In this document: one piece after another, positions 3,536 through 58,490 of the stretch | Layout of the letters: every line of letters begins with the position of its first letter | Position numbering within the stretch: the stretch's first letter is position 1 | Translations under genes and position numbers: made by a program | Notes under the pieces: model-generated | Databases searched by the model: none | Told to the model about the DNA's origin: nothing | The model's input: only the letters and a program-made list of their open reading frames with translations | Source of the DNA: an uncultured Vicinamibacterales bacterium | GTDB taxonomy: Bacteria > Acidobacteriota > Vicinamibacteria > Vicinamibacterales > UBA8438 | DNA length: 64,000 bases | NCBI GenBank assembly: GCA_958295905.1 | Contig: OY282382.1 | Span: 3,062,001-3,126,000 of the forward strand | Reading direction: 5' to 3'

Positions 3536-3961
3536 TCAGTCCCGCACGGTGTCGAGGAGGCGGTTGCAGAGACCGGCGACGTACTCGAGGTTGCCCGCCG
3601 CCCGTTCGGCATCCGTCTCGTCGAAGAGATCCCGGGGGGCGAGGTTCTGGCGCTCGTCGCCGTAGAACGCGATGCCGCGGTCGCCGGCCATCTCCGTCGA
3701 GATGGTCGCGAGGCGGTCGACTTCGGCGCGGAACCACTCGGGAAACCGCGCGGCCTCGCGGCGGAGCAGCTCGGCGACGTCGTGCGTCCGGGTCGGCTCG
3801 ACCGCGACGAGGCGCAGGGTGCCCTTCAGGAACAGCTCGACGCACTCCTGCGCCTCGCGGACGACGGTGGCCCAGAACCTGCGCTCGACGGCGAGGCGAA
3901 CCAGCTCCACCCGGCTCGCGGCTTCCTCGATGTAGAGCCGTCCCATGCGCGAGCTGGTCAT
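3536..3961 (-). CDS. HEPN domain protein
   Basis: This is a 141-residue all-helical protein whose start overlaps the end of the upstream nucleotidyltransferase gene by four bases. It has the helix pattern of HEPN domains, with an AQECVELFLKG helix followed by EPTRTHDVAELL. Paired with a minimal nucleotidyltransferase, HEPN proteins form the widespread MNT/HEPN toxin-antitoxin type, in which HEPN is an RNase or an AMPylated partner. The canonical R-x4-6-H catalytic motif with a following tyrosine is not evident, so RNase activity is uncertain. It lies in a region of broken accessory genes. Confidence 0.75.
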   Translation of the reverse strand: MTSSRMGRLYIEEAASRVELVRLAVERRFWATVVREAQECVELFLKGTLRLVAVEPTRTHDVAELLRREAARFPEWFRAEVDRLATISTEMAGDRGIAFYGDERQNLAPRDLFDETDAERAAGNLEYVAGLCNRLLDTVRD

Positions 3962-4527
3962 ATCTCGACCACCTCGCCGAACCGGAAATCGGGTTTCAGG
4001 TCCCAGTACCAGCTTCCGTCGTCGAGAAACACCCGGCGGCTTCCGAGCTCGCGCATGCGGGTGCGCATGGCGTCGAGCACCGTCTGGAAGAACTGCCCGC
4101 GGTCGACGAGGAGGATGCCGTCCTCGACCATGTCAAGGTAGAGCGGGCTGTGGAACCGCGCCTCCTCCGGCGTCTTCGTCACGAGGTTCCACTCGACGGC
4201 CGGCAGCGCGTGCCGGGCCCGAACGTGCGACCACGCCGCGAGGAGGGGGCGCCGGCGTTCGACCAAGCTGTGCGGGAACCCTTCCGCGACCACCAGCACA
4301 TCGATGTCCGAGCGGGGGGCGCCCTGGCCGCGGGCCACCGAGCCGAAGAGCACCAGCGAGCGCAGGCGCGGGCCGAGGAGCGCGCACCAGGCGTCGGCGG
4401 CGTCGGCGAGCGACGTGCGGAACGGCTCGGCGATCGCCTGCCGGGCAATCCGCGTCCGCACCGCGCGCTTGACGCCGTCGGTGTCGGTGTGACGGGGGAC
4501 GGGCCCGCCCTTTGCGGCTACCTTCAT
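3958..4527 (-). CDS. Minimal nucleotidyltransferase (MNT) of HEPN pair
   Basis: The 189-residue protein carries the nucleotidyltransferase signature GS-x10-D-x-D in GSVARGQGAPRSDIDVLVV, followed by a strand with a further acidic position (AVEWNLV). The start at 4527 is chosen because GGAAGA lies just upstream; the open frame continues further but without supporting motifs. MNT proteins transfer nucleotides to a HEPN partner, and here that partner follows with a four-base overlap. A longer C-terminus (about residues 130-189) is present than in the smallest MNTs. It probably acts as the antitoxin half of the pair. Confidence 0.8.
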   Translation of the reverse strand: MKVAAKGGPVPRHTDTDGVKRAVRTRIARQAIAEPFRTSLADAADAWCALLGPRLRSLVLFGSVARGQGAPRSDIDVLVVAEGFPHSLVERRRPLLAAWSHVRARHALPAVEWNLVTKTPEEARFHSPLYLDMVEDGILLVDRGQFFQTVLDAMRTRMRELGSRRVFLDDGSWYWDLKPDFRFGEVVEI

Positions 4528-4689
4528 CGGTTCGTCTTCCGCATGTCCCGATTCTGTCCCGGCCCTGCGTGTGCGGGCGGACTCTGGAAAGAACGCGGCG
4601 TCTTGCCGTCCGAGCACCGGCGGCGGGCTCGTTGATCCGCGTGTCGGTGTGCGCCGGAGCGACGCCGGATCGCGTCCAGGCTGAGGCGG

Positions 4690-4925
4690 GAGCGCGCCCG
4701 CGCAGTATTCGACGATCCTGGCCAGCTCGTGATTACGGATCTGGCGGCGGATCACCTCGCTGGAGACGTCGAACTCGTGGGCCAAATCTAGATCCGGTTC
4801 CCGCGGTCGAGTACGGACGTGACCGCGGCGTCCCCCGCCGTGATGGAGAGTGCGGCCATCGTGGCTTGGGCGGCTTGGTCGGGCGACGGTCCCGCGTCGA
4901 CCCAGTCGAACTGAAAACGAACGCT
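4690..4925 (-). pseudogene. Decayed gene with ImmA/IrrE-like or HTH-like end
   Basis: Two protein-like stretches lie in different minus-strand frames and meet near 4793. The first reads FQFDWVDAGPSPDQAAQ and then LSITAGDAAVTSVLDR, and closes at a stop. The second reads LDLAHEFDVSSEVIRRQIRN and then HELARIVEY. The second resembles the last helices of ImmA/IrrE-type or HTH regulators. Neither has a start codon with a ribosome site. The simplest reading is one gene that lost its centre, fused out of frame. Family assignment is tentative. Confidence 0.35.
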
Positions 4926-5083
4926 TCATGCCAGACCTCGGACCCGTTGCCCTGGCTCCAGAGGATACCCGCATCGTCTCTCGCCGGGATGAACCGGGCG
5001 CCGGCCCGCGCATCGGGAACCTGCGCGGGCGGGGCGACTCCACCACGACGGGGCGGTGGAACTCACGTCCGGATTCCAGCCGG

Positions 5084-6868: not shown

Positions 6869-8311
6869 TCAGTCGAACCGGCGCAGGTACCGGGGGTTCC
6901 GTTCGGCCAGCTCGCCGTAGACGCGCAGGCAGACGTCGGTCCACCCGCGGATCCACTCGCAGTAGTGCAGGTTCGGTCGGGCGCTCGTGCCGTACCGGGT
7001 GTGCGCCTCGTGATAGCACCCGCCCGAGCACAGCGGGCGCGCCCAGCAGGTGTGGCAGTCGGTCTTGTTGGCCAGATGGTGACGTTCCAGGAACGCGTTC
7101 TGGGCGTTCCGGTCGATGCCGTCGTCGACGGTGCCCAGCTTGTGCTCGTCCGAGCCCGCAAACCGGTGGCACAGGGCGACGTCGCCCCCGGTGGCGACCC
7201 CCACCAGCCCCAGCCCCGCTCCGCACGGATAGGCCTTGCTGGCGCCCTTGTGGATCTCCTCGAGGGTCTCGCTCACGTTGGAGAACCCGTGGTGCTTTCC
7301 GGCCAGCGCGGCCTCGAGGAATTCGTCGGCGAGCGCCGTGAACTGCTCCACCATCCGGTCGAACCCCGACCCGTCGAGGGCGTAGGCGCGGCCGGGGGAG
7401 GTCGTCACCGGGGCGAACCCCACCTCCTGGAACCCGATCTCCTCGGTCAGGTGCCGGTAGATGCCCACGACGTCGCTGACCTGCGAGGTCAGGGTCACGC
7501 GGGCCCCGATGGGCCGGCTCGTGTGGCGCCGCAGCAGCTCGCGCACCCGCGGGAGCAGCTCGTCGTAGCTGCCGCGGCCGTCGTGGAACACGCGGAAGCG
7601 GTTCTGCATCTCGCGGGGGCCGTCGATCGACACCGTGACGGAGATGTCGTGCTCGGCCAGGAACTCGATCATCTCGCCGGTCAGGAGGGTGGCGTTCGTG
7701 GTGAGGTTGAACTCGACCTGCTTGCCCCGGGCCTCGGCCTGCTCGCGGGCGTAGGGCACGACGCGGCTCAGGACGGGGTAGTTCATCAGCGTCTCGCCGC
7801 CGAAGAAGCTCACGTGCACCACCCGGTTGCCGCCCGACTCGTTGAAGAGCAGGTCGACGCTCTTGCGGGCGGTCTCCTCGCTCATGAACTTCGGCTGCGC
7901 CCCGTTGGTGGTGTCGACGATCTTGTCCTCGCTGTACTCGTAGCAGTAGCTGCAACTGAGGTTGCACTGGTTCGTGACGTTCAGCACCGCGGTCGTGAGC
8001 GGGAACGGCGTCAATGGGATGATCGCCGGGGCCGGGGCCGGGGCCGGGGTCGGCCGCGGCGGCGCGGCGACGGTGCGCACCGCGTGGACCTGCTCGAGCT
8101 CGTCCAGCGTCTGCGCGAGGTCGGCGTCGGGGAACCGCGGGCCTACCTCGGCGAGGAGATCCCGGCGCGGCACGCGCCCGCCCGCGAGGCCGTCGATGAG
8201 CGCGGCCGCCGGCTCGTCGAGCGCGAACACCGCCGCGCTCGGCACCAGATAGAGGAAGCGCCGGCCCGCCGCGGTGAACGGATGAAACTCTCCCTGCGCC
8301 AACAGGCTCAT
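6869..8311 (-). CDS. qhpD: Radical SAM/SPASM maturase of the gamma subunit
   Basis: This is a 480-residue radical SAM enzyme with the CNLSCSYC cluster motif (Cys116, Cys120, Cys123) and a cysteine-rich SPASM region. The latter includes CHTCWARPLCSGGC near the C-terminus, which binds auxiliary iron-sulfur clusters. In the QHNDH pathway, QhpD makes the three Cys-to-Asp/Glu thioether crosslinks in the gamma subunit in the cytoplasm. An N-terminal domain (about residues 1-80) resembles the peptide-recognition part of such enzymes, and a Pro-Ala run near residues 85-97 links it to the barrel. The start overlaps the qhpA stop (ATGA). An open frame extends further upstream but is the shadow of qhpA. 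Confidence 0.93.
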   Translation of the reverse strand: MSLLAQGEFHPFTAAGRRFLYLVPSAAVFALDEPAAALIDGLAGGRVPRRDLLAEVGPRFPDADLAQTLDELEQVHAVRTVAAPPRPTPAPAPAPAIIPLTPFPLTTAVLNVTNQCNLSCSYCYEYSEDKIVDTTNGAQPKFMSEETARKSVDLLFNESGGNRVVHVSFFGGETLMNYPVLSRVVPYAREQAEARGKQVEFNLTTNATLLTGEMIEFLAEHDISVTVSIDGPREMQNRFRVFHDGRGSYDELLPRVRELLRRHTSRPIGARVTLTSQVSDVVGIYRHLTEEIGFQEVGFAPVTTSPGRAYALDGSGFDRMVEQFTALADEFLEAALAGKHHGFSNVSETLEEIHKGASKAYPCGAGLGLVGVATGGDVALCHRFAGSDEHKLGTVDDGIDRNAQNAFLERHHLANKTDCHTCWARPLCSGGCYHEAHTRYGTSARPNLHYCEWIRGWTDVCLRVYGELAERNPRYLRRFD

Positions 8312-9984
8312 GGCTGCTCCACGGCGGTCGGATCCCAGCGCAGGTAGAGCGGCACGGTGACGAGGAGATGGGCGCGTCCCCGCAGCCCGCCGCCGTCGCC
8401 CGCATCCGGCGGCCAGGTCGCCACCACCCAGACGTCCCCGACGTTGTTCCGGCTGCCGCTGCGCTCCACGTTCGGCCCGTCGACGGCGGGGATGAACCGC
8501 CCGCCGGGCTCGATGGCGCCCACGTAGCGGATGTCGTCGTCCCCGAACGTCACGGCGTACTCTTCGATCGACCAGCGGGCGTCGACCATCCCCAGATCCA
8601 GGTCGTCCTCCGTCGCGGGCTCGCCGTCCGGCCCGTTGTGCCAGGCCCGCGCCTCGAACTGCTGGAACTGCTTGGGGAAACGGACCCCGCCGACCCGCGC
8701 CATGCCCGCTCTCGGGGTCACCTCGATGCGGTCGACGTCGTCGTAGACGGTGAGGGCGCCGGTCGCCGCCGTCTGATCGAGCACGAGGTCCCGGGCGCCG
8801 GTGGCCGCGTCCGGATCGACCCGCACATGCACGTCCAGCCAGTCTCCGGTCGTCCCCGTCACCGCCAGCACCGAGACGCCGGGGCCGAGGTCCGGGAAGG
8901 TGTCGGCCGACTCGGCCGCCGCGGCGAGGTTCCGGCCGTGGACCCGGACCGTCGCGGCGGCGCCGGCCTGGATCGACGGGGGATGCGCCCCGGCCACCGC
9001 CGGCCCCCCCGCGAGGCGCTCCAGGGTGACGTCGATGCCCGTCTCGTCGTAGCCGCCGGTGAACCACCGGCCGCGCATCGTGCGCCGGTCGCGTTCGACG
9101 AACATCACCTCGCGCAGCTCGTCTTCGCCCGGGTCGCCCGGAATCGACCGGCCCCGCCACTGGAAGCCGGTATAGACGATGGCCCGGCCGGTGCGCTCGA
9201 CCTGCCGGCCGGTGCGCGCGTAGGTGTACGTTGCTTCGGTCGTGAACTCGTCCTCGGCGCCGGCCAACGGGGTGATCGTCACCTGTCCGTAGACCGCGCC
9301 GCGGCCGGGGGCGTGCCCCCGCAGCAGCCACGCGCCGCCGAGGCGGGGGGGCCGCATCGTCGCCGACCACGCCGACCACGCCGCGGTCTCGAACGGGAAC
9401 CGTTCCGAGAGGTGGGCCACCGCCCGGTCGACCGCCTGCGGCTTGCCGTCGCCGGGGTCGCCGCGCCGGAACGCCTGGAAGTCGGTGAACGGGTAGTAGC
9501 CGCGGTGCATCGCCATCAGCAGCGACCATTCCTCCCCGGTCCGGCGCTGGCTGATGACCCGCCCCATCGAGTGGCACTGCGTGCAGGTCTCCTCGACGTC
9601 CGCGTCGTCGTAGGGCTGGTCGTCGCTGCGGCGCTCCGCCTCCCAGGCCGCGTCGAGCGCCTCGGCCGGGGCGAGGCCCAGGTTGTTCGCGAGATGGCGC
9701 ACGACGTTGCGGGCCGTCTCCGGGGTCAGGGTCACGCCGTTCAGGGTGACCATGCGGCGGATGGTCTGCTGCCAGCCCTCGGGCGTGGTGCGCCGGAACG
9801 AGATGCGCGACAGCCGCCCCTCGTCGTCGGGCTGGTGGCACGAGCCGCAGGCCTGCCGCACCGTTTCGTCGTCGATGGGAATGCCGGGGCGGTTGGTCTC
9901 CGCCGGCTGGGCGGCGGCGCCGGCCGCCGCGAGCAGCGCGGCGAGCGGAACGCAGCCGAGGAGCTTCAGACGTGGCTGTGGCAT
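8308..9984 (-). CDS. qhpA: QHNDH alpha subunit, diheme cytochrome c
   Basis: This 558-residue periplasmic protein has a signal peptide (LLGCVPLAALLAAAGAAAQ) and two c-type heme motifs, CGSCH and CTQCHSMGR, in its N-terminal third. The rest forms beta-rich domains, as in the QHNDH alpha subunit, which passes electrons from CTQ through two hemes to an external acceptor. The second ATG (9984) is preferred to 10017 because GGCGGAG precedes it and the signal peptide then has a normal length. It is the first gene of the qhpA-D-C-B operon and has a promoter-like sequence directly upstream. Confidence 0.92.
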   Translation of the reverse strand: MPQPRLKLLGCVPLAALLAAAGAAAQPAETNRPGIPIDDETVRQACGSCHQPDDEGRLSRISFRRTTPEGWQQTIRRMVTLNGVTLTPETARNVVRHLANNLGLAPAEALDAAWEAERRSDDQPYDDADVEETCTQCHSMGRVISQRRTGEEWSLLMAMHRGYYPFTDFQAFRRGDPGDGKPQAVDRAVAHLSERFPFETAAWSAWSATMRPPRLGGAWLLRGHAPGRGAVYGQVTITPLAGAEDEFTTEATYTYARTGRQVERTGRAIVYTGFQWRGRSIPGDPGEDELREVMFVERDRRTMRGRWFTGGYDETGIDVTLERLAGGPAVAGAHPPSIQAGAAATVRVHGRNLAAAAESADTFPDLGPGVSVLAVTGTTGDWLDVHVRVDPDAATGARDLVLDQTAATGALTVYDDVDRIEVTPRAGMARVGGVRFPKQFQQFEARAWHNGPDGEPATEDDLDLGMVDARWSIEEYAVTFGDDDIRYVGAIEPGGRFIPAVDGPNVERSGSRNNVGDVWVVATWPPDAGDGGGLRGRAHLLVTVPLYLRWDPTAVEQP

Positions 9985-10007
9985 CGGTCGACTCCGCCGG
10001 ACGGCCC

Positions 10008-10036
10008 TTTGTAACACATGACGGGGCGTCTGTCAG
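10008..10036 (-). promoter_or_regulatory. Sigma70-like promoter for qhpA
   Basis: Read on the minus strand, CTGACA and TACAAA are separated by exactly 17 bases. The expected start point lies about 15-20 bases before the qhpA ATG at 9984. The boxes match the consensus at 5/6 and 4/6 positions. This is inferred from sequence only. Confidence 0.4.
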
Positions 10037-10053: not shown

Positions 10054-10231
10054 GGCAGGGGCATCCCACGTTGACTGCGCGTGACGGCCCACCCCCGATT
10101 CGAGGGGTCGCCACCGTCTTGCCGACCGGCCGGCGCCGCGTGAGACCCACGATTCCGCCCGTCCGGAGCCCCGGGACCCGCCGCGATTCTGCCTGCGCAC
10201 GGCGGTGACGGGCGTAGGATGGTCCTGCCGC
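10054..10231 (+). repeat. Family B repeat, copy 1
   Basis: A unit of about 175 bp runs from aggggcatcccacgttgact to a gtaggatggtcct end. Its middle contains the palindrome-rich accggccggcgccgcgtgag. Near-identical units occur at 12448, 26931, 27045, 27178, 34667, 36384 and 36789. It is the left border of the AlbA_2/ParA module. Confidence 0.85.
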
Positions 10232-10270
10232 TGCCGTCACCGTGGGCCGACCCGCTGATGTACTCTGGGG

Positions 10271-11467
10271 TTGGAGCGGATCGTGCTGACAGCGGAACAG
10301 TTGCGCGTGTTGATCGCCGATCGGGAGTCCGACCGCGTCGAGCTCATGATCTCGACGACGAATACGGACAAGTTCGGCGAGGCGATCTGCGCCTTCGCCA
10401 ACGACTTTCCCAATCACCGGCAGCCGGGGCGCCTCATCGTCGGCGTCGGCGACGACGGAACCATCGGCGGTCTCACCGTCAACGACCGACTGCTGCGGAG
10501 GCTGGGGGACTTGCGTTCGAACGTCAACCTCGAACCGCTTCCGGTCATGACCGTCCAGAAGTACGTTTTGCCCGAGGGCGGGGTGGCGGTGATCGAAGTC
10601 CTGCCGTCGGACCTGCCGCCCGTGCGCTACAGGGGCAGGGTCTGGATACGGGTCGGTCCGTCCCGTCGTGGCGCGAATCGGCAGGAAGAGCGGATTCTGA
10701 CCGAGAAGAGGACGGCTCTCCAGCGGACCTTCGATGTTCGTCCGTGCCCCGGCTGCACCCTCGACGATCTCGTCCCGGATCTGTTCCGGATCAGCTATCT
10801 GCCCGCCGCCGTGGACCGCGACGTCATTGCCGAGAACAACCGAGGCGACCAGGAGCAGATGGCGTCGTTGCGCTTCTACGACCTCGCCGCCGACTGCCCG
10901 ACCCATGCGGGGGCGCTGTTGTTCGCCAGAGACCCCCTGCGTTGGATGCCCGGCGCCTGGATTCAGTTCGTCCGGTGGGCCGGGACGACGATGGCGGACG
11001 ATCCCGTCGGCGAGAGACGGTTCAGCGGCGATCTGCTCACGGTTCTGAGGGAGGTCGAGGCCTTCGTCTCCCTGCCTGCGCAGGCGCGTCCCGTAACGGC
11101 GTCGGCTCTCCGCGAAAAGACCGAGACGGACTATCCGCCGGCGGCGATTCGCGAGTTGCTGTTGAACGCGATCATGCATCGTTCATACGAATCGAACGCG
11201 CCGGTCCGGTTCTACTGGTACGATGACCGGATAGAAATCCAGAATCCCGGTGGACTGTACGGCATGGCCTCGCCGGAGAACTTTCCGCGTCAGACGGATT
11301 ACCGCAATCCGGTCATGGCCGAGGCCCTGGCGACGTTGGGGTACGTCAACGCGTTCGGGCGCGGGGTCATCCGCGCGCAGGACGCGTTGCGCAGGAACGG
11401 CAATCCGGAGGCGGAGTTCACGTTCGAGCCCTCCCACGTGCTGGCGACCATCCGGAGGGCGCCTTGA
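10271..11467 (+). CDS. AlbA_2 (Schlafen-like) / GHKL ATPase regulator
   Basis: This 398-residue protein has an N-terminal AlbA_2/Schlafen_AAA domain (about residues 1-130, with E-L-M-I and the FGEAICAFAND helix). It is followed by a RecG-C/HATPase_c_4 type ATPase part: RELLLNAIMHRSY is the N box, and IEIQNPGGLYG and GRGVIRAQDA are the later ATP-binding boxes. Such proteins are usually called putative transcriptional regulators or RecG-like helicase-related proteins; no helicase motif is present. The start is TTG at 10271 or GTG at 10283. The stop overlaps the ParA start by four bases, so the two act together. The pair is bounded by family B repeats. Confidence 0.8.
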   Translation: MERIVLTAEQLRVLIADRESDRVELMISTTNTDKFGEAICAFANDFPNHRQPGRLIVGVGDDGTIGGLTVNDRLLRRLGDLRSNVNLEPLPVMTVQKYVLPEGGVAVIEVLPSDLPPVRYRGRVWIRVGPSRRGANRQEERILTEKRTALQRTFDVRPCPGCTLDDLVPDLFRISYLPAAVDRDVIAENNRGDQEQMASLRFYDLAADCPTHAGALLFARDPLRWMPGAWIQFVRWAGTTMADDPVGERRFSGDLLTVLREVEAFVSLPAQARPVTASALREKTETDYPPAAIRELLLNAIMHRSYESNAPVRFYWYDDRIEIQNPGGLYGMASPENFPRQTDYRNPVMAEALATLGYVNAFGRGVIRAQDALRRNGNPEAEFTFEPSHVLATIRRAP

Positions 11468-12465
11468 AGACGATCGCCTTCTTCAACAACAAGGGGGGAG
11501 TCGGCAAGACGACGCTGGTGTACCACTTGGCCTGGATGTACGCCGATCTCGGATTCTCGGTGGTGGCGGCGGACCTCGATCCGCAGGCGAACCTGAGCGC
11601 CGTGTTCCTTGATGAGGAACGGCTTGAGCGGTTGTGGCCCGACGACGGTCATCCCGACAGCATTCTGGGGGCGATGTCGCCCATTCTGAGAGGTCTTGGC
11701 GACATCCGGGAGCCACACCTCGAGCCGATCGCCGACAATCTCGGCCTTGTCGCCGGCGATCTGGGCCTGTCCGGTTTCGAGGCGAAGCTGTCGTCGGCGT
11801 GGCCGGCCTGCATGGAAGGCGACGAGTCGGCGTTCCGCATCGAGTCGGCGTTCCATCGGACGATTCTCGACGCCGCCGATCAGCAGAGTGCCGATTTGGC
11901 GTTGATCGACGTGGGTCCGAATCTGGGCGCCATCAACCGGGCCGCGATCATCGCGGCCAACTTCGTCGTATTCCCGCTCGCCCCCGATCTGTTCTCCCTG
12001 CAGGCGCTCCGCAACGTCGGTCCGACGCTCGGCGAGTGGCGCAACGCATGGCGGGATCGCCTGGAACGCCGTCCGGCGGTTCGCGATCTCGAGTTGCCGT
12101 CGGCCGATATCGTGCCGGCCGGCTACATCGTGATGCAGCACGCGGTGCGTGCGGGGCGTCCCGTTCAGGCGTACCAGAAGTGGATCAAGCGGATTCCGGA
12201 CGTGTATCGCCGGCAGGTGGTACCCGATCTGCCCGGTGGCGGCTCGTCGTCGACTGAAGACGACGAGGAATGCCTGGCCACCCTGAAGCACTACCGCAGC
12301 CTCATGGCCATGGCGCATGAGGCCCGCAAGCCGATGTTCCACCTCAGGGCGGCGGACGGCGCGCTTGGCGGTCACATCTACGCGGTGCAGGATTGCTACC
12401 GGGACTTCGAGAAGCTCGCGAAGGCGATAGCCGCCAAGTGTGACGTCAGGGGCATCTCACGCTGA
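11464..12465 (+). CDS. ParA family ATPase
   Basis: This is a 333-residue deviant Walker A ATPase (NNKGGVGKTT, residues 8-17), with the AADLDPQANLS strand and the DVGPNLGAINRAA loop typical of ParA/MinD proteins. The C-terminal part (about residues 195-300) is longer than in plasmid partition ParA and has no ParB or centromere gene next to it. It starts at TTG, overlapping the upstream stop (TTGA). Its last codons (GISR and stop) lie inside family B repeat copy 2, so the end of the protein was probably set by that repeat. The role is unknown; a paired regulator or defence module is plausible. Confidence 0.8.
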   Translation: MKTIAFFNNKGGVGKTTLVYHLAWMYADLGFSVVAADLDPQANLSAVFLDEERLERLWPDDGHPDSILGAMSPILRGLGDIREPHLEPIADNLGLVAGDLGLSGFEAKLSSAWPACMEGDESAFRIESAFHRTILDAADQQSADLALIDVGPNLGAINRAAIIAANFVVFPLAPDLFSLQALRNVGPTLGEWRNAWRDRLERRPAVRDLELPSADIVPAGYIVMQHAVRAGRPVQAYQKWIKRIPDVYRRQVVPDLPGGGSSSTEDDEECLATLKHYRSLMAMAHEARKPMFHLRAADGALGGHIYAVQDCYRDFEKLAKAIAAKCDVRGISR

Positions 12466-12622
12466 CTGCGCGTGACGGCTCGCCCCCGATTCGAGGGGGG
12501 TGTCGCCACCGTCTTGCCGGCGGGCCGGCGCCGCGTGGGACCCACGATTCCGCCCGTCCGGAGCCCCGGGACCCGCCACGATTCCGCCTGCGCACGGCGG
12601 TGGCGGAGCGTGGGATGGTCCT
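12448..12622 (+). repeat. Family B repeat, copy 2
   Basis: This copy is in the same orientation as copy 1 and supplies the last codons and stop of the ParA gene. It has a small insertion (ggg then tg) after the cgattcgagg core. With copy 1 it bounds a 2.2-kb segment inside the qhp cluster. Confidence 0.85.
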
Positions 12623-12675
12623 GAGTGTGACGTGCGCACCAGTTGACGGAAACGGTCCGAATACGGCCCCAACCT

Positions 12676-12784
12676 CTTCGGCCTGTCGCTCGGCTTCACG
12701 CCCGCGGCTCGCCGCCGTCGATGGGGCTTTTCTCGAACGAGACGATCACTTCGGCCTGTCGCTCGGCTTCACGCCCGCGGCTCG
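12676..12784. repeat. Direct repeat at the qhpG 3' end
   Basis: A 36-base sequence beginning cttcggcctgtcgctcggct occurs at 12676-12711 and again at 12749-12784, offset 73. The second copy covers the last codons and stop of qhpG. It is a short tandem duplication of the gene end. Confidence 0.7.
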
Positions 12785-14307
12785 TCGTCGGCCACTTGCA
12801 GCGCCCCCTTGGCGATGAGCACCGACAGGGCGCCCAGGAAGTCCGGCAGGGGCGCGGGAGGACAGATGCGGTTGTAGGCCTCGTACAGGTCGGGGACCTG
12901 CCGGTGGAGCGGCGCGAGCTCGACCACCCGGACCAGGTCGATGCCGCGGAGGAAGCGGAGGCCCCGGACGGCGCCGGCATCCGGCCAGCCGGGGACGGCC
13001 AGCCGGTCCTCGAGGACGATCCGCCGGGGGGTGATGGCGGGGCGGCGGACGACCGCGAGCCGGTCGCCGCGTTGGAGACGCAGCGCCGGGGCGCGCCGCA
13101 GGGCGTCGAAGGCGGCGAGGACGGCGGGGTCGCGGCGCAGCACGTCGACGGCCGGCTCGGGGGGCGCCGCCCCCGGCATGCCCGCTTCGGCGCGGTCGGT
13201 CCAGAACGGATGGTCGTGCCGGCCCGCCGCCTCCGCGAAGAACTCGGTCGACTGCCGCTCCAGCGCGGTGTGCATCTCCCGCTCCCGCTCGTCGAACAAG
13301 TCGAGCGCGACCCCCGCCAGTCCCGGGTCGGCCAGCGCGGTGTGCGCCGCGACGGCGGCCAGCCAGCCCGACGCCAGGGCCTTCTTGACGCCGCAGGACG
13401 ACAGCGGGTCGATGAACGAGCCCGCGTCGCCGACCAGCAGCATGCCGGGGGCCCCGTACGTCTGCGCGTGGTAGACGGAGGCGTCGCATCCCCAGGGCTC
13501 GACGTTGAGGACGGCCCCGGCGGTCAGGGGGCCGAGCACCGCGGTCTTGGCGAGCTCCGCGTCGTAGCAGGGGGCGAGGGGCCCGCCGCGCTCGAGGCGG
13601 GTGACCCGGGGGTCCACCATCAGGGTGAAGTAGCGTTGCTCCGCCGTCACCGGGACCGACCACGCCCAGCCGTCCCCGTAGCTCTCGACCAGGGTGTGGG
13701 ACTCGTCGTCGAGGCCCCAGCCGCCCCGCCGCGACCAAACCGCGGCGAGGGCCAGCGTCGTGCGCGCGGCCGCGTGCCGGCGGAATCCGCGCCGCGCGAT
13801 GACCCCGGCGCGGCCCGAGCAGTCCAGCACGAACCGTGCCGCCACCGACTTGGGGGCGCCGCCGCCCACGTAGCGTATCGAGGACTCCGTGGCTCCGGTC
13901 GGACCGGACCGGGGCGCCGGATCGACCCGGCGCACGACGGCGTCGGCCTCGACGGCGGCGCCCGCCTGCGCCGCGAGGCGCAGCAGCAGGCGGTCGAGCT
14001 CGCTCCGCCGCACCTGCCACCCGATTCCGCCCCCCGCGAACCGCATCGCCCGCGGACCCTCTCCGCCCCACCACACCGTGTTCCCGGTGCTGCGTAGGAA
14101 GCCCGCCGCCTCGACGTCCCGGGTCACCCCGATCAGGTCGAACAGCTTGCGGCAGCTCGGCGGCAGCGACTCGCCCAGGGTGCGGGCGTCGTCCGCCGGT
14201 TTCGCCAGCACCCGCACCGAGCGGCCCCACGCCGCGAGCAGGCGGGCCGCGGCCGCGCCGGCCGGGCCGCCGCCGATGACGACGACGTCGAGGGGCGCCG
14301 CACTCAT
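12769..14307 (-). CDS. qhpG: FAD-dependent monooxygenase for CTQ formation
   Basis: This 512-residue flavoprotein has a dinucleotide-binding motif (VVVIGGGPAGAAAA, residues 8-21) and a second FAD contact, GDAGSFIDPLSSCGVKKA, typical of tryptophan-halogenase-like and geranylgeranyl-reductase-like monooxygenases. QhpG dihydroxylates the CTQ-forming tryptophan of the crosslinked, still leader-bearing QhpC. The assignment rests on this fold plus qhpF and qhpE next door. It is divergent from qhpF, across a 0.5-kb region of tandem repeats, and 2.8 kb from qhpA owing to the inserted module. The protein is cytoplasmic. The start has few alternatives and matches the family N-terminus. Confidence 0.82.
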   Translation of the reverse strand: MSAAPLDVVVIGGGPAGAAAARLLAAWGRSVRVLAKPADDARTLGESLPPSCRKLFDLIGVTRDVEAAGFLRSTGNTVWWGGEGPRAMRFAGGGIGWQVRRSELDRLLLRLAAQAGAAVEADAVVRRVDPAPRSGPTGATESSIRYVGGGAPKSVAARFVLDCSGRAGVIARRGFRRHAAARTTLALAAVWSRRGGWGLDDESHTLVESYGDGWAWSVPVTAEQRYFTLMVDPRVTRLERGGPLAPCYDAELAKTAVLGPLTAGAVLNVEPWGCDASVYHAQTYGAPGMLLVGDAGSFIDPLSSCGVKKALASGWLAAVAAHTALADPGLAGVALDLFDEREREMHTALERQSTEFFAEAAGRHDHPFWTDRAEAGMPGAAPPEPAVDVLRRDPAVLAAFDALRRAPALRLQRGDRLAVVRRPAITPRRIVLEDRLAVPGWPDAGAVRGLRFLRGIDLVRVVELAPLHRQVPDLYEAYNRICPPAPLPDFLGALSVLIAKGALQVADDEPRA

Positions 14308-14531
14308 GTCGCCATTGTGCGCGAATCCGTCGGCCCGCGGCAAAACGGACCCCGACCCCGCTCATGTTGCCGGTGCGCCGCCCGGGGCCCGCCAGGCTTG
14401 GGACCCCCGGGAATCGCCCCGCCATGTTCAGGCGCGCAGCGGCAATCGCGGGTTGCGCTCTCAATGAAGTTGGCCACGCCATATCGAACACCGGCCCTGT
14501 CCGTCCCGGGGGCCCGGAGACGGCCCGGCGT

Positions 14532-14864: not shown

Positions 14865-16649
14865 GTGCTCGACCCGCACTTTCGGCGCGCCCTATCCTAT
14901 CTGAGGCCCTACCGGCGGCCATTGGTCCTGGTGGTGGTGCTCAGCCTCGTTTCCACCGGCTTCTCGCTCGTGGTGCCGCTGCTCTCCCGCACGCTGGTCG
15001 ACGGCGCCATTCTCGCCGGCGACGCCGGCGCCCTGCGCCTAGTCGTGCTGCTGTTCGTCGCGGTCACCGCGGCCGGGTTCGGGCTGAACGTCTGGAGCGG
15101 GCTGCGCTACACGCGGGTGTCGGCCGACATCCTCTTCGACATGCGCCTCGCCCTCTACCGCCACCTGCAGCAGTTGTCGCCGCGGTTCCATGCGCGGACG
15201 CGGTTCGGCGACGTCATGTCGCGGCTGAACAACGACATCGGCGAGATTCAGCGGGTGGCGTCCGAGGTCGTGCTGGCGTGGGTGGGGAACGTGCTGTTCC
15301 TCGTCGGGGCGGTCGTCATGCTGGCGTACCTGGACCTGCAGCTGCTGCTGCTCGGCACCGCGGCGCTGCCCGTCAGCATCTGGGCCCTCGTGCGCTACCG
15401 GCGCCGCCTCGAGACGCGGGTCGCGGTGCTGCGCGAGCGCAGCGCCGACATCGGCAGCTTCCTCATCGAGACCCTGCAGGGGGTCCGGCTGGTCGTCGCC
15501 GCCAACGCCCAGGAGCGCGAGGTGCAGCGCTTTCGCGGCCGGAACGGGCGGTTCATCGACGCTCTGATGGCGATGCAGTGGACGACCTACCTGTCGGGCG
15601 GCCTGCCCGGGCTGGTGCTGTCGGGCAGCACCGCGCTGGTGTTCCTGTACGGGGGGCAACGGGTCATCGACGGGACGTTGACGCTGGGGACCCTCGTGGC
15701 GTTCATGGCCTATCAACTGCGGCTGTTCGGTCCGGTGCAGGCCCTGATGGGGCTCTACGCCAGCTTCGCGACGGTGCGGGTGTCGCTGGGACGGGTGCAC
15801 GAGATTCTGGACGTGGAGCCGGAGGTGGTCGAGCCCCCGGGGGCGGCGGCGCTGCCCGCGGTGCGCGGCGAGTTGGAGCTGGACGACGTCACCTTGTCGT
15901 TCGATCGCGGCTCGCCGGTGCTCGAACGCGTCACCCTCAAGGCGTCGGCGGGCGCCTGTCTGGCCATCGTCGGCCCGAGCGGCGGCGGGAAGAGCACCAT
16001 CGCCGACCTCGTGCTGCGGTTCCTCGACCCCGACGCGGGGACCGTCCGCCTCGACGGGCACGACCTGCGCACCCTCAGGCTGCGCGATCTGCGCGCGCGG
16101 GTCGCGCTCGTGGAGCAGGAGCCGGCGGTGTTCCACGCGTCGATCGCCGACAACATCCGGTACGCGCGTCCCGAGGCGACCGACGAGGAGGTCCGGGCCG
16201 CGGCCGGGGCGGCGGGGTTGGCGGGGCTGCTGGCGGCGTTGCCGGCGGGCTGCGCGACGGTGGTGGGCGAGCGCGGAGCCGCCCTGTCGGCGGGCGAGCG
16301 GCAGCGGCTGGCGGTCGCGCGGGCGTTGCTGGCCGCTCCGTCGGTGCTGGTGCTCGACGAGCCGACGGCGGCCCTCGACCCCGAGTCGGAGCAGCAGGTG
16401 GCCGCGGGGTTCGAAAAGGTCATGCGGGGGCGCACGACGGTCCTCATCACCCACCGGGCGGCCCTGGCGCGGCGGGCGGATCGGGTCGCGGTCCTCGACG
16501 GCGCGCGCGTCGTCGAGCACGGTCCGCCCGAAGATCTGATGGCGCGGGGCGGCCGCTTCGCGCAGTTGTTCGCGGCCGACCGGGAGCGGATCGGGTCGCG
16601 GTCCTCGACGGTGCGCGCGTCGTCGAGCACGGTCCGCCCGAAGATCTGA
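14865..16649 (+). CDS. qhpF: ABC transporter exporting the gamma subunit
   Basis: This is a 594-residue half-transporter with six membrane helices in about residues 1-300, fused to an ATPase domain. Walker A is GPSGGGKST near residue 370, the signature is LSAGERQR near 475, Walker B is VLVLDEPTAALD near 495, and the H-loop is LITHR near 527. QhpF exports the modified gamma subunit to the periplasm. It starts at GTG 14865, with a TATTCT box only 13 bases before it. Its 3' end carries a 110-bp tandem duplication. This shifts the frame, so the last 22 residues are altered and the stop comes 50 bases before qhpE instead of overlapping it. Confidence 0.88.
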   Translation: MLDPHFRRALSYLRPYRRPLVLVVVLSLVSTGFSLVVPLLSRTLVDGAILAGDAGALRLVVLLFVAVTAAGFGLNVWSGLRYTRVSADILFDMRLALYRHLQQLSPRFHARTRFGDVMSRLNNDIGEIQRVASEVVLAWVGNVLFLVGAVVMLAYLDLQLLLLGTAALPVSIWALVRYRRRLETRVAVLRERSADIGSFLIETLQGVRLVVAANAQEREVQRFRGRNGRFIDALMAMQWTTYLSGGLPGLVLSGSTALVFLYGGQRVIDGTLTLGTLVAFMAYQLRLFGPVQALMGLYASFATVRVSLGRVHEILDVEPEVVEPPGAAALPAVRGELELDDVTLSFDRGSPVLERVTLKASAGACLAIVGPSGGGKSTIADLVLRFLDPDAGTVRLDGHDLRTLRLRDLRARVALVEQEPAVFHASIADNIRYARPEATDEEVRAAAGAAGLAGLLAALPAGCATVVGERGAALSAGERQRLAVARALLAAPSVLVLDEPTAALDPESEQQVAAGFEKVMRGRTTVLITHRAALARRADRVAVLDGARVVEHGPPEDLMARGGRFAQLFAADRERIGSRSSTVRASSSTVRPKI

Positions 16650-16695
16650 TGGCGCGGGGCGGCCGCTTCGCGCAGTTGTTCGCGGCCGACCGCGA
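16476..16695 (+). repeat. 110-bp tandem duplication at the qhpF 3' end
   Basis: Positions 16476-16585 and 16586-16695 are nearly identical, with two mismatches noted (c/t near 16512/16622 and g/c at the end). Because 110 is not a multiple of three, the second copy is read in another frame in qhpF. Removing one copy would restore a FAADRES ending whose stop overlaps the qhpE start as GTGA. Confidence 0.9.
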
Positions 16696-26297: not shown

Positions 26298-27026
26298 TCA
26301 GCGCGTCCAGTCGAAAGCGTGTTCGGCGGTGACGACCCGCGAGCCGCCGAGCGAACTGACGTTGCCGCCGGTCAGGTGCTCGCCGAACGGTCCGTACCGG
26401 ATCCGCACGGGCTCCGGCTGGGGCGCCACCGGGAACTGCACCAGCACGTCGACGCGGCCCGGCGGCCAGTCGGTCGTGTTGAGGCGCGCCCAGTACACGC
26501 CGTCCCGCACCACCGCCGCACCGTCGGTCATCAGGTTCTGCGCGGGCCATTCGCCCCGCGGCAGCTCGTTGGCCGCGCCGTGGGTAATCTGGTAGGTCAC
26601 CACCGCGCCGTCCGGCAGGTCCGTCGCGCCTTCGATGCGCAGCTCCCGCCAGCGCGTCCGGTGGTCGACGGCCAGCATGACCGCCTCGGCGCCGCGGTCC
26701 TCGCCGTCGACGCCGTCTCCGGCCGGGGCCGGCGCGCATCCCGTCCCGATTGCGCCGGCCGCGAGCAGGACGATCGCGGCCGCCGCCGGCCCGGCGCCGC
26801 CGCGCCTCGAGTTTCTGTCGCCGCCGGCCCGGGGGCCGCCCGCGGCCGCCGCGGATCCGGCACCGCGGCGGTCGGGTCCGAACGGCGCTCTGCCGGTCGA
26901 TCCGGCGGAGCGGTCCAGCGGGCAGGGGCATCCCACACGGACTGCGCGTGACGGCCCGCCCCCGATGCGGGGGGTCGCCACCGTCTTGCCGACCGGCCGG
27001 CGCCGCGTGTCCTCCGCAAGGCTCAT
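26298..27026 (-). CDS. Putative lipoprotein of unknown family
   Basis: The C-terminal 150 residues form a convincing secreted domain (for example ITHGAANELPRGEWPAQNLM and VDVLVQFPVAPQPEPVRIRY) behind a hydrophobic segment with a lipobox-like LAAGAIGTGC. The upstream part is odd. The best ribosome site (GGTGAGGAG before ATG 27026) starts MSLAED, which runs straight into codons made by a family B repeat (27008-26931) before reaching the hydrophobic segment. The true start may be an internal GTG nearer the lipobox. Either the repeat inserted into the gene's beginning, or the start was lost and replaced. Confidence 0.5.
   Translation of the reverse strand: MSLAEDTRRRPVGKTVATPRIGGGPSRAVRVGCPCPLDRSAGSTGRAPFGPDRRGAGSAAAAGGPRAGGDRNSRRGGAGPAAAAIVLLAAGAIGTGCAPAPAGDGVDGEDRGAEAVMLAVDHRTRWRELRIEGATDLPDGAVVTYQITHGAANELPRGEWPAQNLMTDGAAVVRDGVYWARLNTTDWPPGRVDVLVQFPVAPQPEPVRIRYGPFGEHLTGGNVSSLGGSRVVTAEHAFDWTR
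26931..27008 (+). repeat. Family B repeat, partial copy 3
   Basis: This copy covers the first half of the unit, from ggcaggggcatcccacac to the ggccggcgccgcgtg core. It lies within the 5' part of the putative lipoprotein gene, read antisense. Confidence 0.8.
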
Positions 27027-27044
27027 GTCCCACTCCTCACCGGT

Positions 27045-27170
27045 CGAGGCGCCACCGTCTTGCCGACCGGCCGGCGCCGCGTGAGACCCGCGATTCCGCA
27101 CGTTCCGAGCCCCGGGACCCGCCACGATTCCGCCTGCGCCCGGCGGTGGCGGAGCGTGGGACGGTCCTGG
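27045..27170 (+). repeat. Family B repeat, partial copy 4
   Basis: This copy lacks the first 45 bases of the unit and begins at the gccaccgtcttgccgacc core. It runs through to the ggagcgtgggacggtcctgg end. Copies 3-5 lie head to tail. Confidence 0.8.
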
Positions 27171-27177
27171 TCCGGCG

Positions 27178-27352
27178 GGCAGGGGCATCCCACGCTGACT
27201 GCGCGTGACGGCCCGCCTCCGATTCGAGGGGTCGCCACCGTCTTGCCGGCGGGCCGGCACCGCGTGAGACCCGCGCTTCCGCACGTCCGGAGCCCGGGAC
27301 CCGCGACGATTCCGCCTGCGGCCGGCGGTGGCGGAGCGTGGGGCGGTCCTGG
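27178..27352 (+). repeat. Family B repeat, copy 5
   Basis: A full-length unit in the same orientation as copies 3 and 4, with a few substitutions (ggccggcaccgcgtgagacc). It ends before the small gene at 27448. Confidence 0.85.
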
Positions 27353-34666: not shown

Positions 34667-34803
34667 CAGGACCATCCCATGCTCCGCCACCGCCGGGCGT
34701 AGGCGGAATCGAGGCGGGGCCCGGGGCTCCGGACGTGCGGAATCGTGGGGTCTCACGCGGCGCCGGCCGGCAAGACGGTGGCGACCCCTCGAATCGGGGC
34801 GAG
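34667..34803 (-). repeat. Family B repeat, copy 6, left part
   Basis: Reverse orientation relative to copies 1-5. It is broken at the cgaatcgggg core by the IS1182-like element. The remainder of the unit continues at 36384. Confidence 0.85.
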
Positions 34804-36383
34804 GAGTCTGCGCCGCAGAAAATCGATGCGACAATTGTAGACGAGCCGACGACGAGAGGGAGCTTGATGTCGACCACGTTTCGCCCCTACGTGCCCGAGC
34901 AGTCGCTGTTGTTGCCGCCCGATGTGCGGGAGTGGCTGCCCGAAGGTCACTTGGCGCACCACATCAGCGATCTGGTGGACGGTCTGGATCTGACGGCGTT
35001 CTACGCGCCGTACGAGGGGGACGGTCGTCGCAACGCGCCGTATTCGCCTCGGATGATGGTGAAGGTGCTGCTCTACGCCTACGCGACGGGGGTGTTTTCG
35101 TCGCGGAGGATCGCGAAGAAGCTGGAAGAGGACGTCGCGTTCCGGGTGCTGGCCGCCGGCAACTTCCCGCAGCACCGGACGATTTGCGAGTTCCGTCGCC
35201 GGCACTTGGCCGATTTCAAGCGGCTGTTCGTCGAGGTGGTCGGTCTCGCGCGGGAATTGGGGCTGGCCCGGTTCGGGAAGCTGTCGATCGACGGGACGAA
35301 GGTGCGCGCGAATGCGAGCAAGCGCAAGGCGATGAGCTACGGTCGGATGCAGGAGGAGGAACGGCGTCTGGCCGGCGAGGTCGACGCGCTGTTGCGGTCG
35401 GCGGATGAGGCCGACGTGGCCGAGGACGTGCGGTTGGGTCCGGCGGTACGGGGCGACGAGTTGCCGGCGGAGTTGCGGCGGCGTGAGGATCGTTTGGCGG
35501 CGATCCGGGCGGCGCAGGCGCGTTTGGAGGCGGCGCAACGGGCTGCGGATGCCGCGCGCGGCCGGCAGCCGGGGCGGACCCGGAATCCGAAGGGGGGCCG
35601 GCCGTACAAGCGGGCGTACGGGGAGCCCGACGAGAAGTCGCAGAGCAACTTCACGGACCCGGAAAGCGGGATCATGAAGACGGGCAACGAGGGCTTCCAG
35701 CAGTGCTACAACGCGCAGGCGGCGGTGGACGCCGAGCACCAGTTGTTGGTGGCGACGGATGTGACGGCGAACGCGAGCGACCAAGGGGGGCTGCCGGTGT
35801 TGCTCGACCAGGTGCGGGAGACGTTCGAGACGCAGCCGGAGACGGTGCTGGCCGACGCGGGGTACTGCAACGAGCGGGATTTGGCGGACCTGGAAACGCG
35901 GGGTGTTGACGGTTACGTGGCGGCGGGCCGGGAGGACAAGGGGGTCGCCGGCCGCGATCTGGAGAAGCATCCGGCGACGGGGCGGATGGTGGAGAAGCTG
36001 TCGACGCCGGCGGGGCGGGCGGTGTATGCGGAGCGGAAGTGGTTGTCGGAGGCGCCGTATGGCTGGGTCAAGCACGTGCTGGGCTTCCGGCGCTTCAGCC
36101 TGCGCGGCCTGGCGCAGGTGCGGGGCGAGTGGGACTTGGTGTGCCTGGCGGTGAACGCCAAGCGCCTGCACGCGCTGATGGCGGCGTAAAGGGGGTGGAT
36201 CCTGCCCCCACCGACCGAGAATCGGGTGCGAATCGCGGCGTTTGGAGGGGTGTACGGCCTATTTTCGGTTCACGCCGCCGGCTGGTCGAAAATCACCTGC
36301 TCGTCGACCGCGGAAGACACCTTGACGCCGTGCGTCACGACGTAAGCCACCGGGGTTCCGCGAACTTCCTGCGGCGCAGACTC
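34804..36383 (+). mobile_element. IS1182-like insertion sequence, 1580 bp
   Basis: Perfect 15-base inverted ends, gagtctgcgccgcag at 34804-34818 and its complement at 36369-36383, continue imperfectly inward. The 4-bp sequence cgag flanks both sides (34800-34803 and 36384-36387), consistent with a target duplication. Both flanks are parts of one family B repeat, so the element inserted into that repeat. It carries one intact transposase gene. Confidence 0.88.
34867..36189 (+). CDS. IS1182-family transposase
   Basis: The gene encodes an intact 440-residue DDE transposase. The N-terminal domain reads FRPYVPEQSLLLPPDVREWL and continues to the RRIAKKLEEDVAFRVLAAGN helix-turn-helix region. The catalytic core has LSIDGTKVRANAS (first Asp), TVLADAGYCNERDL (second Asp) and a C-terminal YAERKWLSEAPYGWVKH (Glu). 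Between them is a long charged coiled-coil insert (about residues 155-245), typical of IS1182 members. No frameshift was seen, so it may be active. Confidence 0.92.
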   Translation: MSTTFRPYVPEQSLLLPPDVREWLPEGHLAHHISDLVDGLDLTAFYAPYEGDGRRNAPYSPRMMVKVLLYAYATGVFSSRRIAKKLEEDVAFRVLAAGNFPQHRTICEFRRRHLADFKRLFVEVVGLARELGLARFGKLSIDGTKVRANASKRKAMSYGRMQEEERRLAGEVDALLRSADEADVAEDVRLGPAVRGDELPAELRRREDRLAAIRAAQARLEAAQRAADAARGRQPGRTRNPKGGRPYKRAYGEPDEKSQSNFTDPESGIMKTGNEGFQQCYNAQAAVDAEHQLLVATDVTANASDQGGLPVLLDQVRETFETQPETVLADAGYCNERDLADLETRGVDGYVAAGREDKGVAGRDLEKHPATGRMVEKLSTPAGRAVYAERKWLSEAPYGWVKHVLGFRRFSLRGLAQVRGEWDLVCLAVNAKRLHALMAA

Positions 36384-36507
36384 CGAGCCGTCACGCGCCG
36401 TCAGCGTGGGATGCTCCTGCTCCGGTCGCAGGACCATCCCACGCTCCGTCACAGCCGTGCGCAGGCGGCATCGTGGCGGGTCCTGGGGCTCCGGACGTGC
36501 GGAATTG
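36384..36507 (-). repeat. Family B repeat, right part of copy 6 and partial copy 7
   Basis: The first 40 bases complete the unit interrupted by the IS (ccgtcacgcgccgtcagcgt). A second, partial unit then starts with the caggaccatcccacgctcc end at 36429 and runs to tccggacgtgcggaatt. The reverse-orientation copies were therefore also head to tail. Confidence 0.8.
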
Positions 36508-36788
36508 TTGCCGAACGCGTGAAAGCGATCGATTCGAGCCCGGTGCCGACCCCAAGATGTTGTGGTGGCCGGGGCATCGTCCGACCGACAGCTTCGGCGT
36601 GTGCTCGCCGCCGTCAAGGCGCGTCGCTTCGCTCCGCCCCCGCTTCGCGGGGCTCTCGGCCTGGACGGCGGCTCCGCGCACGCCTGTCCAGACCGGGCAT
36701 TTATCGGACGATGCCCAACCCTGACTCCCTACATCTTGTGGTCGACGACCTGTCCAGATTGACGCACTTTCGGGCGACTGTTGACAGC

Positions 36789-36890
36789 GGAATCGTGGGT
36801 CTCACGCGGTGCCGGCCGGCAAGACGGTGGCGACCCCTCGAATCGGGGGCGAAGCCGTCACGCGCAGCCAGCGTGGGATGCCCCTGCTCC
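36789..36890 (-). repeat. Family B repeat, partial copy 8
   Basis: Half-length copy in reverse orientation, from ggaatcgtgggtctcacgcg to gtgggatgcccctgctcc. It lies just before the promoter of the DUF1592 gene. The 280 bases between this copy and copy 7 hold no recognised gene. Confidence 0.8.
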
Positions 36891-44682: not shown

Positions 44683-44696
44683 GTCCGGATTCTAGC

Positions 44697-44943
44697 CCGG
44701 AAATCGCAGCCTGCGGCACCGATTACCGCCCCACCAACCCTCCAGGCGTCCGCGCCGTTCCACGGCGCCGCCGCCTGCCCCGGAAACCGCTGCCTGCGGC
44801 ACCGATTACCGCCCCACCAACCCTTCAGGCGTCCGCGCCGTTCCACGGCGCCGCCGCCTGCCCCGGAAATCGCAGCCTGCGGCACCGATTACCGCCCCAC
44901 CAACCCTCCAGGCGTCCGCGCCGTTCCACGGTGCCGCCTCCTG
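44697..44943 (-). repeat. Family A repeats, three tandem 83-bp copies
   Basis: The units start at 44699, 44782 and 44865 with ggaaatcgcagcctgcggca or close variants. Each runs through accgccccaccaaccctcc to gcgccgttccacggcgccg. Spacing is exactly 83 bases. They fill the gap between the dehalogenase start and the promoter of the next gene. Confidence 0.9.
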
Positions 44944-45074
44944 GCCGTCGCCGGTAGCGCCCGCGTCGCACGGAGACCGCCGGTCGAGGGCGGCGGCGCT
45001 CCTGCCGGAGGCGGCTGGGCCCCCTCCGGGGTTCCCGAAATGCCCCGTCGATCGGCCCCGTCCGGGATTCGGGG

Positions 45075-58079: not shown

Positions 58080-58455
58080 GTGCGGGGGACGAATGGCGGG
58101 GCGGCCGGGTTCGGCGCGGCGTTTTCGGCGGCGGCGCGTGAGCGCGGAGGACGACGGGCGGGGTGGACGGGTCGGTCCCGGCGTTTTCGGCGGCGGTGCC
58201 TGAGCGCGGGGGACGATGGGCGGGGTGGACGGGTCGGTCCCGGCGTTTTCGGCGGCGGTGCCTGAGCGCGGGGGACGACGGGCGGGGTGGACGGGTCGGT
58301 CCCGGCGTTTTTCGGCGGCGGTGCCTGAGCGCGGGGGACGACGGGCGGGGTGGACGGGTCGGTCCCGGCGTTTTCGGCGGCGGTACCTGAGCGCGGGGGA
58401 CGGAAGGGTGGGGCGGCCGGGTTCGGCCCGGCGTTTTTCGGCGGCGGGGCGTGAG
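58079..58455 (+). repeat. Six tandem 62-64 bp units derived from the drmB end
   Basis: Each unit repeats the drmB terminal sequence gggtcggtcccggcgttttc and ggcggcgg, then tgagcgcgggggacga. Units begin near 58078, 58139, 58201, 58263, 58325 and 58388, ending about 58452. They separate drmB from the third gene by 411 bases. Because they copy the gene's own stop region, they look like slippage or unequal-crossover products. Confidence 0.92.
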
Positions 58456-58490
58456 CGCGGGGGACGGGTCGGGCCCGGCGGCCGGCGGCG

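Follow-up and report, generated by a model that had tools for sequence, protein, structure and literature searches.

A mobile AlbA_2–ParA gene pair in the qhp cluster of a Vicinamibacterales bacterium and the IS1182-derived MITEs around it

The gene pair and the flanking repeats

The analysed window is a stretch of 64,000 nucleotides from a genome of 6.3 Mb in three contigs, whose proteins have their best matches in Vicinamibacterales, Acidobacteriota. In its qhp cluster, qhpA, encoding the QHNDH alpha subunit (8308–10017, reverse strand), and a gene for a qhpG-like flavin monooxygenase (12769–14343, reverse strand; 199.5 bits with NCBIfam QhpG, below the cut-off of 240) are separated by two genes on the forward strand. 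The first of them (10283–11467) encodes a protein with an SLFN_AlbA_2 domain (PF04326, 1.2e-13, 52.1 bits at a gathering score of 25.3) and a GHKL-like HATPase_c_4 domain (PF13749, 8e-16). The second (11464–12465) encodes a ParA/Soj-type ATPase of 333 aa (ParA/AAA_31, PF13614, 8e-23). The genes overlap by 4 bp (11464–11467); both the tight coupling and the domain assignments given in the preliminary description of this locus are confirmed. Judging by homology, translation of the AlbA_2 gene probably starts from GTG at 10283 (394 aa) rather than from TTG at 10271 (398 aa). About 17 bp upstream of this start there is a conserved motif, CTGATGTACTCT (10255–10266, forward strand). The same position is occupied by CTGATGTACGCT or one of its close variants (TGTTGTACGCT, TGCTGTACGCT) in a genome of the same genus (G001) and in genomes of the family that carry the pair elsewhere, and we consider the motif a putative promoter.

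Two copies of a repeat in the same orientation (forward strand) flank the pair, as described earlier; their exact ends are 10056–10227 (172 bp, between qhpA and the AlbA_2 gene) and 12447–12623 (177 bp). The right copy is inserted in the 3'-end of the ParA gene. The ParA stop codon (12463–12465) lies inside it, also in agreement with the earlier description; homology with relatives stops at ...CDV, and the last residues are encoded by the repeat. A separate 10-bp target duplication, AGTGTGACGT, flanks this copy (12437–12446 and 12624–12633, forward strand). No clear target duplication is left around the left copy.

The repeat ends are terminal inverted repeats, CAGGRNCATCCCACGCT. The 17-bp terminal motif has 14 matches in the window compared to 1.65 expected. 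Genome-wide, the terminal 17-mers occur 528 times with at most one mismatch (266 forward and 262 reverse; the reversed control yielded 0 and 0), and hence the host genome contains approximately 264 elements; at least 49 repeat copies were found in it at E≤0.001. For the target-duplication test 29 copies were collected and 28 parsed, the unparsed one being the left copy of the window. A duplication of about 9 bp was observed in 26 of the 28 parsed copies, with the mean score of 8.2 versus 0.59 for shuffled flanks (the maximum of 500 shuffles was 1.70). An autonomous parent of the repeats, 1753 bp long, is located in the same window (34667–36419, forward strand). It has the same ends and encodes an IS1182-family transposase (34867–36189; NF033551, 364 bits against the cut-off of 270). 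The 177-bp copy matches, with its positions 33–177 and 1–36, the two ends of this IS (the first 137 and the last 36 bases); the repeat is thus the IS minus its central part. Terminal inverted repeats, target duplications and IS ends minus the transposase are shared with other IS1182-family MITEs, and nothing is unusual in the window repeats but their high copy number in this genome. Adjoining the IS copy is its 458-bp non-autonomous relative (36429–36886) with an exact 9-bp duplication CTCCGGTCG. Two further MITE copies lie in tandem (26923–27169 and 27180–27351); tandem copies elsewhere in the genome have a common target duplication, a hint that a single site was hit by insertion more than once or underwent recombination.

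The preliminary description viewed the pair as a composite cassette bounded by the direct repeats and moved by recombination between them. Two direct copies do flank the pair, but the same site is occupied in the congeners without them. In G001 the order qhpG–ParA–AlbA_2–qhpA is retained on one contig, and the 152-bp gap before qhpA does not contain the window's repeat. G002 has the pair and, after it, qhpG on a single contig; qhpA lies on another contig, whose last 15 bases are identical to the beginning of the former. Thus, each of the three genomes of the genus has the pair at the qhpA–qhpG position, and in the two besides the host these repeats are missing; this is the very observation that the preliminary description had named as contrary to its proposal. 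At the threshold of 1e-5 the repeat was not found in any of 39 relatives (two genomes of the same genus and 37 others); assemblies of relatives from short reads may under-represent repeats, and the two junctions concerned were read directly. Moreover, the right copy has an independent target duplication and cuts into the end of the ParA gene, and the MITEs, about 264 in number, are scattered over the whole genome. Given that the congeners have the pair at the same site without these repeats, the repeats neither bounded nor moved a cassette, and we reject this scenario. With approximately 264 elements in 6.3 Mb, simple Poisson arithmetic predicts about 25 neighbouring element pairs at most 2.4 kb apart, half of them in the same orientation, so two copies this near each other are unremarkable. 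Amid so many MITEs, direct repeats flanking a gene are uninformative on how the gene moved. The repeats represent a late MITE burst: IS1182-derived MITEs were inserted on either side of the pair after its entry into the qhp cluster.

G002 carries a short insert of another kind between qhpA and the AlbA_2 gene (L174, approximately 7025–7150); its ends are inverted (GTGCACGTCAG...CTGACGTGCAC), and it apparently belongs to another MITE-like family. Beside the qhp cluster of the window, a HEPN gene (3536–3961, reverse strand; PF05168) overlaps a nucleotidyltransferase gene (3958–5046, reverse strand; PF01909; the real start is probably near 4600), an arrangement typical of MNT-HEPN toxin-antitoxin pairs; G001 and G002 have the HEPN gene as well. 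The 3'-end of qhpF is spanned by a 110-bp tandem duplication (16476–16695, 98%), and short tandem arrays are located at 58031–58466 (unit of about 62 bp), 54079–54456 (about 126 bp) and 44696–44946 (about 83 bp).

The pair in the qhp cluster and at a second site

In all ten other qhp clusters of the family that were examined, qhpG and qhpA are adjacent and the pair is absent. It is therefore foreign to qhp, as had been suggested, and is a guest in this cluster. In the simplest reading, qhp acquired it a single time, in the ancestor of the genus, and the MITEs followed afterwards.

A close pair with AlbA_2 proteins 81–84% identical was found at another common locus, flanked by GCS2/VOC genes and MBL-fold genes, in seven other genomes of the family representing three genera. 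At this second locus the AlbA_2 gene of G023 carries a deletion and matches in two pieces, and the ParA frame is broken in G026. The locus is empty in G017, a congener of two of the seven genomes. The alignment of the occupied site (G022) with the empty one (G017) yields an insert of approximately 2.4 kb, which consists of the two genes and short flanks only; no transposase or integrase is present within this unit. The promoter-like motif before the AlbA_2 gene is common to both locations of the pair in the family. The pair is a conserved two-gene module, strict in gene order and translational overlap, and has passed as a unit of about 2.4 kb both among distant bacteria and from one chromosomal site to another.

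These data bear on two alternative functions. According to the first, the AlbA_2/GHKL protein senses ATP or the amine state and, together with ParA, sets the expression of qhp. Retention of the pair between qhpA and qhpG in three of three genomes of the genus would fit such a role, and COG2865-type proteins are frequently annotated as regulators. On the other hand, the pair is missing from the ten other qhp clusters and occupies a different locus in seven genomes of the family, the protein has no wHTH domain, and the AlbA_2 gene of G001 is shortened to 72 codons although qhp there is intact. We thus consider a qhp regulator unlikely. The preliminary description had suggested a regulatory or defence unit; of these, a defence-type role is plausible.

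The second alternative, a remnant partition or maintenance module of a plasmid or an integrative element, is suggested by the fold of ParA. The closest structures to its AlphaFold2 model (pLDDT 91.9) are DIP2308 (3pg5, Z 28.4) and then Soj proteins (Z 26–27). However, among 72,556 plasmid records only two match at E≤1e-40, both with 33% identity, IMG/VR provides a single match (60% identity), and the occupied and empty chromosomal sites differ by the pair only; this makes a partition module very unlikely. One of the distant ParA relatives (33% identity) has suggestive surroundings: it is encoded on a Vibrio plasmid, with a type I restriction system nearby. Plasmid or phage origin of the pair was considered and rejected, the ParA matches being distant apart from the one in IMG/VR.

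Distribution, decay and genomic neighbours of the pair

A scan of a genome collection with the ParA query produced 161 relatives, of which 80 loci were retained. In 79 of them the AlbA_2 gene immediately precedes the ParA gene, the remaining one being at a contig edge. Among 74 measured pairs the overlap equals exactly 4 bp in 72 and 1 bp in two, and the lengths are 393–410 codons for AlbA_2 and 325–343 codons for ParA. Most loci have no third conserved partner gene. The tree and motif sets comprised 44 or 45 of the 80 loci, plus the window; the 45-row tree covers 14 named phylum-level groups, some of whose bin labels may be wrong. In the host's own phylum, a close ParA is present in only 10 of 396 genomes. 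AlbA_2 matches were obtained, among the matches listed, in 23 of 100 genomes including the host itself, and many of these are distant paralogues. The AlbA_2 and ParA distances are correlated (Spearman 0.33; none of 2000 permutations was as high), with only partial agreement of the trees. Two AlbA_2 subtypes are spread across ParA clades, which implies that partners were sometimes exchanged. A literature search in open-licence PMC papers returned no description of such a pair; it is undercharacterised and widely distributed.

In total, 92 instances of the pair were compared. Both genes are intact in 81, AlbA_2 alone is broken in eight (one of these, L082, is at a contig edge, and L087 possibly has a divergent N-terminus), both are broken in two, and ParA alone in one. 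The deletions in the AlbA_2 genes of G001 and G023 are in frame, with the 4-bp overlap kept and ParA intact. They fit the loss of a harmful effector first, but also an independent role of ParA. Decay biased towards AlbA_2 is not proven, since 80 of the 92 instances were found through ParA; errors in draft assemblies are also possible. Beyond contig-edge cases, ParA lacks an intact AlbA_2 partner in seven loci, and because it persists there it may have its own role. Conversely, the host genome (G000), G001, G002 and G020 contain solitary AlbA_2 relatives (42–44% identity), with no ParA gene in the examined stretch. ParA is thus not always needed, and these solitary paralogues argue against an obligatory antitoxin. 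The host genome also contains two more distant AlbA_2–ParA pairs less than 11 kb apart (contig C1, approximately 4.587 and 4.597 Mb; L226, 6855–8957 and 15671–17850), the AlbA_2 gene of one having an internal TGA; a solitary AlbA_2 gene is located in L227.

Neighbours of the pair, which the preliminary description had proposed to record, are mostly housekeeping genes (for instance, gyrA, serC, recX, alaS and uvrB) and not defence genes. Names of serC and some other neighbours were read from the sequence rather than from the scan. One nearest gene per side was considered, with a single locus contributing two downstream genes. The set excluded 11 near-duplicate loci, those lacking a called neighbour or a ParA gene, and a small number of others. 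In it the closest gene upstream is HmaA in 7 of 57 cases, and the closest one downstream is HmaB in 5 of 54. In contrast, no PADLOC family matched more than one of 57 control genes (out of 102 sampled distant genes) taken from the same loci at least four genes away. Other neighbours are RloB/AAA_21 (L081), YhcG (L129) and an HsdR-like protein (L145); a helicase lies more distantly in L073. Preference for insertion into tight operons was not above background: the neighbour is codirectional in 59 of 71 upstream and 55 of 65 downstream cases (background 77%), and the gap does not exceed 30 bp in 29 of 71 and 19 of 65, respectively (background 41%). A strongly conserved neighbourhood, with the pair between gyrA and serC, is observed in Gallionellaceae/Nitrosomonadales (L088, L095, L097, L107 and L117); judging by the serC side, the same site is occupied in L106, L108 and L111.

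The Hma neighbours allow for the pair being an accessory of Hma (BREX-related, DUF499) systems, which regulates or backs up HmaA–HmaB–HmaC, the solitary copies being relics. HmaA and/or HmaB sequences, intact or remnant, adjoin the pair in 13 of the 80 loci, and proteins combining Schlafen, histidine-kinase and wHTH domains are tied to BREX/BR loci in at least 1017 taxa (PMC12839542). However, roughly five sixths of the loci lack any Hma gene within the examined stretch, and intact pairs occupy housekeeping sites, such as gyrA–serC in several of the Gallionellaceae/Nitrosomonadales loci. No Hma system was found beside the window copy, whose neighbours are qhp genes. We consider a purely accessory role rather improbable.

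Predicted activities and relation to known systems

The AlphaFold2 model of the AlbA_2 protein has pLDDT of 88.5. Its best structural match is DIP2311 (3lmm) with Z 22.3 but rmsd of 13.8 over both domains. The N-terminal domain taken separately matches the tRNase domain of SAMD9 (9o0d; Z 9.9, 3.5 Å over 139 residues), 2kyy (Z 10.2) and SLFN11, SLFN5 and SLFN13 (Z 8.8–9.0). The putative active-site acids E19 and E24 are present in 45 of 45 rows, D61 in 37 and D62 in 24, so the third predicted acid is not invariant. Their spacing (5 and 37–38 residues) resembles that of the SLFN13 active site E205/E210/D248. Taken together, the sequence and the model suggest that the AlbA_2 protein is a probable Schlafen/SAMD9-like RNase with E19, E24 and D61/D62 as the putative active site. 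Matches of the same protein to PADLOC models of pAgo reflect the common AlbA_2/Schlafen domain (PMC6299218). The C-terminal domain matches ATPase domains of histidine kinases and PDK (Z about 9) and is likely an ATP-binding GHKL-type regulatory domain. A C-terminal wHTH is absent: the window protein ends directly after HATPase_c_4, and all 74 measured homologues have only 393–410 aa. In ParA the deviant Walker A and the Walker B residues are kept (K10 in 45, K15 in 44, D37 and D39 in all of 46 rows).

Based on these sequence and model features and on analogy with described systems, the pair may be a ParA-controlled Schlafen-type RNase module of the toxin-antitoxin or abortive-infection type; we judge its chances of being right and wrong about equal. 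In such a module the ParA/Soj ATPase, a nucleotide-dependent and probably DNA-bound partner, would hold the RNase inactive or aim it. Once triggered, for example by infection, the RNase would stop growth by cutting tRNA or other RNAs. The module could act by itself or serve Hma systems as an accessory. More tentatively, it might be a self-sufficient anti-phage module that is widely transferred, with DNA-bound ParA sensing invading or disturbed DNA and freeing the Schlafen RNase; ParA would then be an immune sensor and not a partition protein.

The one related prediction of an RNase controlled by ParA that we found concerns dyads of HEPN (MAE_18760) and ParA/Soj ATPase, predicted to be toxin-antitoxin systems with the ATPase as the proposed antitoxin (Anantharaman et al. 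2013, PMC3710099). Both there and here two genes encode a predicted RNase and a ParA/Soj ATPase, whereas the RNase candidate here is Schlafen AlbA_2 with HATPase. The BREX/DUF499 (BR/Hma)-linked Schlafen-kinase-wHTH proteins, as presented in the corresponding part of PMC12839542, resemble the AlbA_2 protein in the order of the AlbA_2 and GHKL-like domains, and the pair is sometimes located beside HmaA/HmaB; it differs from them by the lack of wHTH and the addition of a dedicated ParA partner. If the proposed module is real, bacteria have a relative of the antiviral SLFN/SAMD9 RNases that a ParA ATPase controls. The pair is small, intact in many genomes and easily cloned, and therefore the question of an immune system composed of a Schlafen RNase and ParA is directly testable.

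The best structural matches of the two proteins, DIP2308 and DIP2311, come from the same organism, C. diphtheriae, and are three locus tags apart, which suggests a related pair there. DIP2311 (583 aa) is longer than the AlbA_2 protein of the window. Finally, orf23 of the P22-like Salmonella phages ST160 and SE1 encodes a ParA of the same kind, similar over nearly the full length with 25% identity; unlike the window ParA it has no adjoining AlbA_2 partner. It is located beside the c2 repressor, the surroundings of which in prophages are a frequent site of immunity genes.
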